Position numbers and translations under genes: made by a program
The notes under the pieces: generated by a model
The model's input: the letters and a program-made list of their open reading frames with translations, nothing else
Database searches by the model: none
Told to the model about the DNA's origin: nothing
NCBI RefSeq assembly: GCF_025629245.1
Contig: NZ_JANZXN010000015.1
Coordinates: forward strand, 124,001-188,000
Direction: 5' to 3'
DNA length: 64,000 nt
Origin: Natronobiforma cellulositropha
GTDB lineage: Archaea > Halobacteriota > Halobacteria > Halobacteriales > Natrialbaceae
Shown: positions 21,003 to 63,136 of the stretch, piece after piece
Numbering within the stretch: the stretch's first letter is position 1
How the letters are laid out: each line of letters starts with the position of its first letter

Positions 21003-22061
21003 ATGGTAGCAACGACGCGACGGCTCGCACTCTGTGCGATCGGCTCCGGACTCGCCTTCCTCGCCGGGTGTGCTGACGCATCGGACGAGCCAGCAGGAGA
21101 CGACGGCTCGAGCGATGGCTCCGACGACGGTGGACCCGCAGACACCGCTTCGATCCCACTCGGTGACCTCCCACCGTTCGCCACGGCGTTCCCGGCCGCA
21201 GTGGAGACGCCCTTCTTCGGCGCGGTCGACCTCGCCTCGATGGCGAACGCGTTCGAGGGACCGGCGGATGGCGAGGAGAGCGAGGGTGTGGAGCCGACAG
21301 ATCCGCTGTTGCGCAACCCGCTCGTAGGATTGCTCACGGGCTTCTCGTTCCTGCTCGGACTCGGGTTCACCGCCGCCGCGAGCGTACAGGACGCGAACGA
21401 CGAGACCGAAGACGGCGGCTGGCTGGTCGTCACCGACGAGACGGCCGTCCTCGTCGGCGCGTACGACCTCGCGGGGATCAGCGACGACGCCAGCGCCGCT
21501 GGCTTCGACGCGGTTCGTGACGACGCCGACGGCGTGGTGTTCGCCGACGAGAACGGCGGCTACGCCGTCGGCGCGAGCGCGGACCTGTTCGCCATTTCGT
21601 TCGCGAACGAGGCTCTGCCGGCACTCGACCCCGTCGCGGCGGTCGAACGCCACGTCGAGGCGGCGACCGGGGAGACGGCCCTGAAACACGAACGCGACGA
21701 GGCGTTCGAGCGACTCCTCCGGACGACGGCCGCAGACGGCATCGTCGTCGGTCTCTACGGTGACGGTGACCGACTCGAGGAGACGCCGGTCCCGTCCGGC
21801 GACGACCTCGCTATCGACGCCAGCGCGTTCGCGGGCGCGGTCGGCGTGAGCCAACACCTCGAGATGGAGACCGGCGGGAACGGGGCGCTCGCACGGGCGA
21901 CCGTCCACTACGACCACGAAGAGGCGGTCGACGAACCACGGCTCGAGGCGTCACTCGGGACGCAAGCGCAGTCGACGTCGCTCACGCGAGATGGGACCAC
22001 GGTTCGCATCGACGCCGAGTACGACGGTGAGACCGTCGACGAGTTCGACGAACTCGAGTAG
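21003..22061 (+). CDS. Lipoprotein of unknown function
   Basis: 352 residues from the ATG at 21003; an in-frame GTG seven codons upstream is less likely. A short Tat-like signal (TTRRLALCAIG) leads to lipobox LAGC with Cys23, then a Ser/Asp/Gly linker. The rest alternates acidic segments and hydrophobic strands (VVTDETAVLVGAYDLAGI, DGVVFADENGGYAVG), with no catalytic motif. A hydrophobic stretch (LLTGFSFLLGLGFTAAASV) around residue 110 could be a membrane or buried helix. I do not recognise a named family. Confidence 0.75.
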   Translation: MVATTRRLALCAIGSGLAFLAGCADASDEPAGDDGSSDGSDDGGPADTASIPLGDLPPFATAFPAAVETPFFGAVDLASMANAFEGPADGEESEGVEPTDPLLRNPLVGLLTGFSFLLGLGFTAAASVQDANDETEDGGWLVVTDETAVLVGAYDLAGISDDASAAGFDAVRDDADGVVFADENGGYAVGASADLFAISFANEALPALDPVAAVERHVEAATGETALKHERDEAFERLLRTTAADGIVVGLYGDGDRLEETPVPSGDDLAIDASAFAGAVGVSQHLEMETGGNGALARATVHYDHEEAVDEPRLEASLGTQAQSTSLTRDGTTVRIDAEYDGETVDEFDELE

Positions 22062-36899: not shown

Positions 36900-37006
36900 A
36901 GGCCGATATCGACGCCTGGGGTCAAAAGCCCGCGTCGGCTGTGCGTAGAAGGCGCACCGCCGAACGTGCTACCTAAAACAGCGAGAGAGTCCCGCCGTTC
37001 ACGGCG

Positions 37007-37060
37007 TCCTCAGAACGCAAGCGTTCTGATGGGCATCGCAAACCTTCGGTTTGCTCAGCG
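37007..37060. repeat. Paired-hairpin insert A in the left-end palindrome
   Basis: About 54 bp with two perfect hairpins: TCAGAACGC (37010-37018), loop AA, GCGTTCTGA (37021-37029); a linker beginning TGG; then GCAAACC (37038-37044), loop TTC, GGTTTGC (37048-37054). Its removal restores a perfect 7-bp palindrome with a ttca loop at the left end of the IS. One boundary base is ambiguous. Confidence 0.75.
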
Positions 37061-37097
37061 GGCGTGAATCGCGTCACTCGTCGACGCGAACCATCGG

Positions 37098-37238
37098 TCA
37101 CTCCCCGGCCGGAGTCTCCAAGTCGTCAGCGGCGTGGATCAACATCCCGCGCCACGTCAGACCGTGTTCGTTCTTCACGCGCTTGATGCGTTCGTACTGT
37201 TCGTCGTCAGGCACTTCGATGTTAACGTGGTTCGACAC
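37098..37238 (-). CDS. Small accessory protein divergent from tnpB
   Basis: 46 residues, GTG start at 37238: the sequence reads VSNHVNIEVPDDEQYERI, then KRVKNEHGLTWRGML and a short acidic end. It resembles the small antitoxin-like or ribbon-helix-helix-type proteins encoded beside tnpB in haloarchaeal IS elements. It lies 56 bp upstream of tnpB on the opposite strand. Function is unknown. Confidence 0.6.
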   Translation of the reverse strand: MSNHVNIEVPDDEQYERIKRVKNEHGLTWRGMLIHAADDLETPAGE

Positions 37239-37590
37239 AGTGTCTACGAGAATCCGTAGGTCTATGTTAGTTGCGCTCGTACACAGAAGTAGCGATGAAG
37301 CGCACCAACGAGTTCGAAGTGGTTCCGAAGTCCGACGAGGACGAGGAGTTACTTCGCCGACTGTTGGACGCTTCAGCCGCTCTCTGGAACGAGATCAATT
37401 ACCAGCGCCGAACCAACTTCGACGACCCGGACGGCGACGTGTGGGAAATCGACGAGTACCGCGGTCGGTACGGCGGGACGCTCGGCGCGTCAACCGTTCA
37501 GCAGATCGAGCGCAAGAACCGCAACGCGTGGCGGTCGTTCTTCGCACTCCGAGAGAAGGGCGAAGCCAACGGCACGCCCGGCTTCTGGGG

Positions 37591-37641
37591 TCTTGGAGAG
37601 CAAAGCTCTCCAATGGTCAGCGAATCGTAGATTCGCTTCGA
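37591..37641. repeat. Paired-hairpin insert B inside tnpB
   Basis: 51 bp: TTGGAGAGC (37593-37601), loop AAA, GCTCTCCAA (37605-37613), linker TGGTC, AGCGAATC (37619-37626), loop GTA, GATTCGCT (37630-37637; the TAG stop spans loop and stem). Removal makes the DNA read GGCTTCTGGGG-CAACCAAG, which gives [11 protein letters not shown], the expected TnpB sequence. The insert is thus an exact 17-codon addition. Confidence 0.8.
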
Positions 37642-38486
37642 CAACCAAGACGAGGGCCGCGAACTGCGGACGTACATCCGAAACACGTCGTACTCGGTCG
37701 AGTGGGGTGAATACTCTCGCCTCGAGATACTCGTCGGCCAAGACCTGAAAGAAGAGTACGGACTTGGCCGCCAAGAACGACTCCGACTCGAAGTTCGCGG
37801 CGAACCCAACTGGAACGAGTACGACAAGCAGGGTCGGTTAGAACTGTATTACGACGATGTGAGCGAGACGTTCAGGGCCTTTCAGCCAGTCACTATCGAC
37901 AATTCTCGACTGGCACAACCACTGGCGGACGAATCCGCCGCTCTGGATATCGGCGCGAACAACATCGTCGCCTGTACGGTTTCGACCGGCGAGCAGTACC
38001 TGTACGAAGGTCGCGACCTGTTCGAACGGTTCCGCGAGACCACGCAACGGATCGCCGAACTTCAGTCGAAACTTCGGGAAGGTCGGTACAGTTCGAAGCA
38101 GATCGACTCGCTGTACCGACGCCGGACCCGACGACGCGACCATGCACAGGACGCGCTTTGTCGAGACCTGATCGAACGACTGTACGACGAGGGCGTTTCG
38201 ACGGTGTACGTCGGCGACTTAACCGACGTGCTCGAGACACTGGTCGGTTCGGACGAACGCCAAACTGCACAACTTCTGGGCGTTCCGGCGGTTCGTCGGA
38301 CGGCTCGCCGACACCGCCGAGGAGTTCGGTATCTGCGTCGAAGTCCGCACGGAAGCGTGGACCTCGCAGACGTGTCCGAACTGCGGTTCGACGGACCGGA
38401 CCACACGGCACCAAGACACGCTCACGTGTGCCTGCGGTTTCGAAGGTCACGCGGACCTTGCAGCAAGCGAGACGTTCCTGAGGCGT

Positions 38487-38543
38487 CATCAGAACTCAAA
38501 GAGTTCTGATTGGCGAACGAGACACGAAGTGTCTCGTCAACGG
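38487..38543. repeat. Paired-hairpin insert C near the tnpB 3' end
   Basis: About 57 bp: ATCAGAACTC (38488-38497), loop AAA, GAGTTCTGAT (38501-38510), linker TGGCGA, ACGAGACAC (38517-38525), loop GAA, GTGTCTCGT (38529-38537). It adds about 19 codons in frame between ETFLRR and the ordinary C-terminal [13 protein letters not shown]. Exact borders are uncertain by a few bases. Confidence 0.75.
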
Positions 38544-38707
38544 CACGAAACAGACGTAGTACGGCCGATGGCACGGCCCGTGTGCCTCAAGTGGGACAGC
38601 CACGACTGGCTGGAGTCACCACGCTCTTCCCGTCCCAACGAGGAGCACACGAACCCGAAAGTTGCCTCCGTGGACTCGGCATAGCCGAGACTCCCAGCGT
38701 GAGGAAA

Positions 38708-38736
38708 CCCCGGCGTTCACGCCGGGGAGGATGTCA
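38708..38736 (+). ncRNA. Right-end hairpin, candidate omega-RNA (reRNA) scaffold end
   Basis: The hairpin CCCCGGCG-ttca-CGCCGGGG plus aggatgtca marks the right end of the IS. In TnpB systems the guide RNA scaffold overlaps this end and the guide is the sequence immediately downstream (here from 38737). Sense-overlapping transcripts from this region have been described for IS1341 elements in Halobacterium. Expression here is inferred, and the partner TnpB is broken. Confidence 0.5.
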
Positions 38737-38888
38737 TACTTCTTCGTGTTGTCCCTCCTTCGCTCACACGGCGCGAGTCCACTACCGGTTCCCCGTCCCC
38801 TCGTCGGCACGACGTCGGTGACGTCCTCTCCGGTGAACGTCGGGCAGGATGTCGTGCCGTGGCTCCGAGCGGAGTAGCAGGGATGGCC

Positions 38889-61726: not shown

Positions 61727-63136
61727 TCACCCGGAGAACATCGATCCAAGTTCGGCGCGCCACTCGGTGATCTCGGTGACGTCCGCGCGGACGTCTTCGA
61801 GACGCTCGTCTAACTCGTCGACCGACGACTCGACGCGCTCGAGACCGGACTCGAGTTCGTCGGCGCGCTCGTCGGTCCGCTCGAGACGGTCGTCGATCTC
61901 GCCAACGTCCGCTTCGAGCGTCTCCGTTCGTTCCGTCGCGTCCGCGAGATCCTCGGAGAGGTCGCCCACGCTCCCGGTCGCCTCGTCGACCCGGTCACGT
62001 AGCGTCTCTAAGTCAGCACCGAACGACTCGAGTTCGGTTCTGAACTCGCCGATGAGTTCCTCGCCGCGTCCGTTCTCGTCGATGAACGCCTCGAGTGCGT
62101 TCGCGTAGGCACCGATCTCTTCGACCCTGGTGACGAGGTGGTCGATGCGGGCACGTTCGCTGGCGGTCATCCCGCTCTCGGCACCCTCGCCGTCGAGTTC
62201 GAGCTCGCGACGGAGGACTTCGACGTCGGTCTCCTCGAGCGTTCCCGCACGGAGTTCGGCGGCGAGGCGTGCCCCGACCGGTTCGTCACCCGCGGTGGCT
62301 GGCGCCGGGTCGGTGTCAGCAGGCGGTGCAGCGACCACCTCGTCCTCGTCTGTCCCCTCGGTTACCCACTCGGCCGGTTCGGCGTCGGCGGTGGCGTCCG
62401 CCGTGTCTCCGTCGGATTCGTCGTCGGCAGGTTCGGCGTCGGCGGTGGCGTCCGCCGTGTCCCCGTCGGATTCGTCGTCCGCAGCCTCGCCGATGTCGAG
62501 GGTGATCTCGGGTTCCTCCTCGTCGTCGACCGTCTGCTCGCCGGGTCCGTCCTCCTCCTCGCTCGGTTCGGCATCGGCGGCCGCTCGCTCGAGGTCGAGG
62601 GTGATCTCGGGTTCCTCCTCGCCGTCATCGCCCTGGTCGTCGAGTCCGGGAACGCCGCCGGTGCCTGCGAGCATGTCTTTGACGACCTGGTTGCGGTCGC
62701 TCGCGAGAATGTCGTCGATCGTCGTGTCGTCGACCTCTTCGGCATCACGCTCGTCGTCGTCGGTGTCTTCGGTCGTCGTGGGTGCGATGGCCGGTTCGGT
62801 CAGGAACTCGGCGGGTTCGGTCTCTTCGTCGAGACGAATCCCGTAGACGGTCACGAGCGGTTCGTCCGGTTCGACGGTACCCGAAAACTCGACGTGGTTG
62901 TCCTGGAACGCCGTCCAGTTCTCACTGTGATACTCCGGGTGGAACCCGACGCCGTCCATCGGGAACGACTCGGGGATGCGCTCGACGAGGCGAAACGAGA
63001 CTGCCTCGTCGCCGGCCGTCTCGATCTCGAAGCGGATCGCCGGAACCGGAAACTCGTCCGCAGTAAACGATTTCTCGACGGTCAGCCCCCCCTCGCTAAC
63101 TTCCACCACCTCGTCCGCGTCAGCGGTACTACTCAT
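61727..63136 (-). CDS. Acidic coiled-coil protein with internal repeats
   Basis: 469 residues. A beta-rich N-terminal domain (residues 1-110, VSEGGLTVEKSFTADEFPVPAIRFEI) is followed by a very acidic low-complexity middle with duplicated segments (EEEPEITLD twice; an 18-residue unit ADDESDGDTADATADAEP twice), then a C-terminal coiled coil of about 150 residues (VEEIGAYANALEAFIDENG, DVGEIDDRLERTDERADELE). It may be a structural or chemotaxis-like scaffold. No signal peptide or membrane helix is visible. I do not recognise the family. Confidence 0.7.
   Translation of the reverse strand: MSSTADADEVVEVSEGGLTVEKSFTADEFPVPAIRFEIETAGDEAVSFRLVERIPESFPMDGVGFHPEYHSENWTAFQDNHVEFSGTVEPDEPLVTVYGIRLDEETEPAEFLTEPAIAPTTTEDTDDDERDAEEVDDTTIDDILASDRNQVVKDMLAGTGGVPGLDDQGDDGEEEPEITLDLERAAADAEPSEEEDGPGEQTVDDEEEPEITLDIGEAADDESDGDTADATADAEPADDESDGDTADATADAEPAEWVTEGTDEDEVVAAPPADTDPAPATAGDEPVGARLAAELRAGTLEETDVEVLRRELELDGEGAESGMTASERARIDHLVTRVEEIGAYANALEAFIDENGRGEELIGEFRTELESFGADLETLRDRVDEATGSVGDLSEDLADATERTETLEADVGEIDDRLERTDERADELESGLERVESSVDELDERLEDVRADVTEITEWRAELGSMFSG
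62376..62483. repeat. 54-bp tandem repeat inside the coiled-coil gene
   Basis: Two nearly identical 54-bp units begin at 62376 and 62430 and differ by only a few bases. Each encodes the 18-residue acidic unit on the minus strand. High identity suggests a recent duplication. Confidence 0.85.

Follow-up and report, generated by a model that had tools for sequence, protein, structure and literature searches.

A decayed tnpB-only (IS1341-type) element of the IS200/IS605 family lies on the plus strand at about positions 36969 to 38737 of the window, i.e. the 64-kb stretch of DNA analysed here. Its ends, which run from CTACCTAA to GATGTCAT, are common to a second copy on the same contig, 100 kb away (L002), and to six plasmid copies (L252-L257) from Natrinema, Natronorubrum, Haladaptatus, Natrononativus and DL31; these seven served as IS relatives for comparison. 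Three inserts, all on the plus strand, interrupt the element. Insert A (37007-37060), with hairpins at 37010-37029 and 37038-37054 (stems of 9 and 7 bp, loops AA and TTC), is a double hairpin of type II; it is bracketed by CG at 37005-37006 and 37059-37060 and splits the left-end palindrome CCCGCCG-ttca-CGG-CG-GG (36991-37063). The tnpB pseudogene (37295-38684) carries a frameshift near position 38240 and the two other inserts. Insert B (37591-37641, 51 bp) is a type IV double hairpin (hairpins 37593-37613 and 37619-37637, stems of 9 and 8 bp, loops AAA and GTA) that is flanked by GGGG on one side and CAAC on the other and adds 17 codons in the tnpB frame, including one TAG. Insert C (38486-38542, 57 bp) is a type I double hairpin (hairpins 38488-38510 and 38517-38537, stems of 10 and 9 bp, loops AAA and GAA) located near the 3' end of tnpB between CG at 38484-38485 and 38541-38542, and it adds 19 codons in frame without a stop. 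The right-end palindrome CCCCGGCG-ttca-CGCCGGGG (38708-38727) is unbroken in the window copy. At the right end of the element (38595-38745), there is a weak Rfam match to HgcC (25 bits against a cut-off of 50), perhaps the omega-RNA region of tnpB.

The presence of paired perfect hairpins inside one IS, as stated in the initial annotation, is real: A scan for adjacent hairpins with perfect stems of at least 7 bp and loops of 2-4 nt found four places in the 64 kb, the inserts A, B and C and positions 22022-22056, as compared to 0.1 expected per window from shuffled sequence. The z-scores for folding of the inserts as single-stranded DNA are -4.0, -6.4 and -5.9 for A, B and C, respectively. The positions originally given for A and B are correct, and insert C, which had been placed at 38487-38543, starts one base further to the left; by sliding, it can also be placed at 38484-38540. 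The fourth place, with two 7-bp hairpins and a 1-nt linker, is probably due to chance. Elsewhere in the window, at 62370-62484, a 54-bp tandem repeat is present in two copies with a 95% match.

The IS relatives revealed empty sites at the exact points of insertion. Site B is empty in all seven of them, and the junction is exactly the one that had been predicted from deletion of B, with tnpB restored in frame. In the same way, the relatives without insert A have precisely the palindrome CCCGCCG-ttca-CGGCGGG expected upon its removal: Site A is empty in four plasmid relatives, and the left-end palindrome is unbroken in L253, L254, L256, L257, L209 and L015. The same site is occupied by insert A in L002 and L022; in L252 it contains a unit of opposite orientation, and in L255 two tandem units, again opposite to that of the window. 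Site C is empty in five plasmid copies and in L002 and is occupied, with different loops, in DL31 (L255), L045 and L057. Thus, the L002 copy contains A but is exactly devoid of B and C. The initial annotation had named the presence of the same sequences at the same places in IS relatives as evidence against insertion; this applies only in half, since L002, L172 and L255 do carry A, B or C, but other relatives are cleanly empty. Halorientalis salina (L172:4695-4740) shares with the window a type IV element that interrupts tnpB at the same codon and likewise contains this TAG; in both genera, the stop stems from an unchanged GTA loop, and loops elsewhere usually vary. The four C-site copies (window, L255, L045 and L057) have common stems and the loops AAA, GGA, TCC and GGG in diverged IS copies.

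The inserts belong to a large family. When the IS was compared to its own genome by BLAST, two other loci matched, and only with the C region; these are copies of C with altered stems and loops. The covariance model R1, built from insert C and these two copies, gave six strong matches in the own genome in addition to the A copies. Weak matches in this genome (L024-L040 except L034) were rejected as ordinary-looking DNA without paired hairpins. R1 matches are present in 36 of the 41 genomes of relatives from different genera, and the search for paired hairpins elsewhere in haloarchaea that had been proposed initially detected family members in 104 of the 116 near-complete genomes from the host's order and in all 45 genera, with up to 67 copies per genome (12-27 in Haloquadratum) and none in the Streptomyces control. 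Moreover, a scan of GTDB genomes with the exact pattern yielded almost only Halobacteria among the matches listed. Among 147 aligned R1 matches, 98.5% of the cells are paired, all 18 base pairs show changes on both sides, and there are 482 compensatory cells as compared to 117 in shuffles, with slid controls far exceeded, too. Scanning the fetched loci for the structure gave 249 units, and shuffled DNA gave none. Type I and II units have the form CG, TC-hairpin1-TG(T/G)GC..-hairpin2-(A/G)A, CG and are 54-59 bp long; the wider scan revealed several types that are unrelated in sequence and share the double-hairpin architecture. The earlier statement that the stems differ in sequence needs correction: A and C are members of a family with recurring stem sequences, and B is of a sister type that has no sequence relationship to it and does not follow the CG rule. 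Neighbours in tandem have one CG in common, and a length of about 115 bp was seen only for inverted pairs of units. Longer hairpin arrays occur as well; some IS ends contain numerous perfect hairpins of different sequence in a row, extending well past the size of one unit (L084:1900-2330, L186:780-1120 and L081:1900-2280). In the literature searched, a limited set, we found no earlier description of this double-hairpin family.

How do these units enter DNA? An empty site contains one CG, and an occupied site consists of CG-element-CG. When the two flanks were joined with one CG, 111 of 116 joins gave a gapless match to an existing empty site, as compared to one of 95 without CG and none of 102 with two CGs (the test spans 43 distinct site classes). 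We can conclude that the insertion converts CG into CG-TC...AA-CG. In 15 pairs, near-identical elements, including identical 59-mers, are located between flanks that are unrelated on both sides, indicating independent dispersal. The elements occur in both orientations, singly or in tandem. Beyond the CG there is only a weak flank preference; many targets are ends of IS200/IS605 elements, e.g. CCGCCGTTCACGG-CG-GG (site A) and GGGGATACAG-CG-CCG, and 48% of the elements lie within 600 bp of tnpB as compared to 11% for positions drawn at random from these loci. A general preference for hairpin arms was considered and rejected: Perfect hairpins were present in 36 of 201 joined flanks and at 386 of 1732 other nearby CGs, and without such enrichment the hot spots are specific IS ends only. 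The proposal of a mobile mini-element thus gained support from the copies in every genus, the single-CG empty sites, the unrelated flanks and the covarying stems, and we consider it likely that the three inserts are copies of transposase-less double-hairpin mobile mini-elements that are widespread in haloarchaea, insert at CG, and reside mostly in or near IS200/IS605 elements.

The most serious competitor, which we regard as possible though rather doubtful, is that the elements are minimal derivatives of the left and right ends of IS200/IS605 elements (PATE or MITE), cut after CG at both ends by a Y1 TnpA, the best candidate enzyme (Y1/HUH). The lack of a true target duplication, the two subterminal hairpins, the triloops of the single-stranded DNA type, and the location in IS200/IS605 elements are all in agreement with this idea, and the number of Y1 genes correlates weakly with that of element copies (rho 0.32, p 0.0006). 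However, hairpin 1 begins 2-3 nt from the cut, the hairpins are unlike any IS end found here, and CG alone is fixed in the target, whereas a PATE or MITE is defined by a target of 4-5 nt. Moreover, eight genomes free of Y1 contain 7-26 copies. As the Y1_Tnp-free genomes have up to 26 copies (G103), the presence of copies does not now require that the genome itself encodes a Y1 enzyme. A serine recombinase (IS607-like, with a 2-bp crossover) was rejected as the mobilizer, since there was no PF00239 match in the copy-rich genome G034 or in the own genome, and no mobilizing gene linked to the elements was found.

The perfection of the stems might also be explained if the elements were immobile, with palindromes that originate on the spot and are made perfect there by template switching in the course of replication. 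This would account for stems that are perfect even though the loops differ between orthologous copies (C in the window and in DL31), and for loops that often form reverse-complementary pairs (GAA and TTC), a pattern that recurs elsewhere and suggests, as judged from the sequences, flipping of the hairpins. Identical 59-mers between unrelated flanks, exact single-CG empty sites, and a linker and ends that are conserved across genera make this account improbable. While the dispersed identical copies refute template switching as the full explanation, it could still explain the turnover of the loops, and the perfect stems, attributed to selection on structure in the initial annotation, may result either from selection or from palindrome-perfecting mutation.

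The loops also bear on the second reading offered initially, an RNA module such as a piece of the tnpB omega-RNA or a regulator. Insert C and the right-end sites do lie in the region of tnpB that produces the omega-RNA, and the stems covary; yet units occur in both orientations at one site, in non-coding IS ends and on either strand of coding DNA, and in tandem arrays, the loops change freely, and the Rfam scan of the IS region gave no match for the inserts. The loops rather have the signature of DNA triloops: They are 3 nt long in nearly all units (the commonest stems have 9 bp), all 264 triloops are closed by a C-G pair, and the loop sequence is GNA or the complementary TNC in 61%. The corresponding value is 12.7% for the CNNNG background in the same DNA and 36% for other C-G-closed triloop hairpins of the loci, some of which may represent additional elements. 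The motif d(C-GNA-G), e.g. d(GCGAAGC), forms an extraordinarily stable DNA mini-hairpin. Such triloops argue for single-stranded DNA rather than RNA, and suggest that a folded single DNA strand may be the working form; an RNA module is very unlikely.

Copies of the mini-elements are also located in genes. Inside the coding sequences of tnpA and tnpB, we found 35 double hairpins; 33 are in frame and 26 open, and seven in-frame inserts carry stops, including type IV (insert B) in two genera. The in-frame counts come from about 15 site clusters and are thus not fully independent, simulated off-frame insertions were recognised in 75% of the cases, and 59% of the elements outside of tnpA and tnpB already have lengths divisible by three; taken together, the excess of in-frame inserts looks real but moderate. 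It is hardly credible that the elements are introns (of the bulge-helix-bulge type) whose removal from RNA renders gene insertions harmless: the stops in seven in-frame inserts would be tolerated, but splicing needs no conservation of the frame, and many copies are antisense or non-coding. The only Y1 TnpA gene of the own genome has an open frame of 176 amino acids with two in-frame type III double hairpins (G000:C6:32470-32937; L308:1152-1302), and another genome (L322) likewise carries an insert at this site.

The mini-elements most likely spread by single-strand transposition in trans. In this scheme, the moving form of the double-hairpin element would be one folded DNA strand bearing two stable hairpins, and a single-strand-specific enzyme would cut and join at CG. 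Among copies in genes, only those in frame would persist because the IS stays working, and the mini-element, riding on the IS, would be a parasite of a parasite. The IS of the window may have gathered three elements and decayed afterwards. More tentatively, and in our judgement this is unlikely, there might be a whole class of hyperparasitic mini-elements, comprising several types that are unrelated in sequence and have nothing in common but the two C(NNN)G triloop hairpins. Such elements would move in the form of single-stranded DNA, by a mechanism that has not been described, and would be held in frame within transposase and TnpB genes so that the host transposon works. For more than a decade, there has been no consensus on the mode of movement of transposase-less short palindromic repeats such as CGTC-tagged REPs, Rickettsia palindromic elements (RPEs) and SMRs. 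The double-hairpin family offers exact ends, a one-CG target rule, dozens of pairs of empty and occupied sites, and culturable and genetically tractable hosts, thus making a direct search for the enzyme possible. In addition, the occurrence of palindromic DNA inserted in frame in archaeal genes for transposases and TnpB is relevant both to protein annotation and to the life of mini-elements on larger elements.

Similar arrangements are known from other organisms. The double-hairpin elements of fungal mitochondria consist of two small hairpins and have been proposed to be mobile; they are organellar and differ in sequence, and there is only a resemblance. As in REP, BIME and REPIN sequences with their RAYT, hairpin pairs are dispersed as mini-elements, but these have a GTAG tag and a linked RAYT, whereas the haloarchaeal ends are CGTC and AACG without GTAG, and Y1 is not required. 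With the RPEs, our units share the occurrence of short palindromic DNA in frame within protein genes; in contrast, they reside in tnpA and tnpB of mobile elements and consist of two separate hairpins. As judged at the sequence level, the family appears to share traits with RPEs, dimers of CGTC-tagged REPs and SMR-A, yet to lack defining features of the latter two. The CGTC-tagged REPs of bacteria, which include Rickettsia RPE-4/RPE-6 and Neisseria dRS3 (Di Nocera 2013, PMC3733652), resemble our units in the CGTC tag at the end, the 8-9 bp stems, the prevalence of head-to-head dimers, the intragenic copies, the location of some copies within larger palindromes, and the lack of a dedicated transposase. 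For the bacterial repeats, the tag is defined as unpaired CGTC, TGTC or CCTC at one end; nearly all R1 matches begin with CGTC, which R1 itself favours. The bacterial repeats have loops of 4-5 nt, A-T in the first and second stem positions and a CCA tail, whereas the haloarchaeal units have loops of 3 nt, commonest stems that begin with CC or TC (the C-site subtype is an exception) and the linker TGT/TGG (TGTGC or TGGGC); moreover, our units are archaeal, concentrated in IS200/IS605 elements and, according to the empty sites, bracketed by CG. SMR-A and SMR-B of Haloquadratum, whose mobilization was called enigmatic (Dyall-Smith 2011, PMC3119063), likewise lack a transposase and a target duplication, and they, too, reside in palindromes close to the termini of IS605-type elements and PATEs; the sites of this kind used by our units are CCCGCCG-ttca-CGG-CG-GG and similar ones. 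SMR-A, compared here by its description, is about 110 bp long with terminal inverted repeats and more than 95% identity, unlike the units of 54-59 bp. In one Haloquadratum genome, we observed candidate SMR-A copies (L292:19190-19316, L300:12997-13116 and L302:11551-11671), dispersed repeats of about 120 bp with inverted ends of the TATCAGT type that are unlike the double hairpins.
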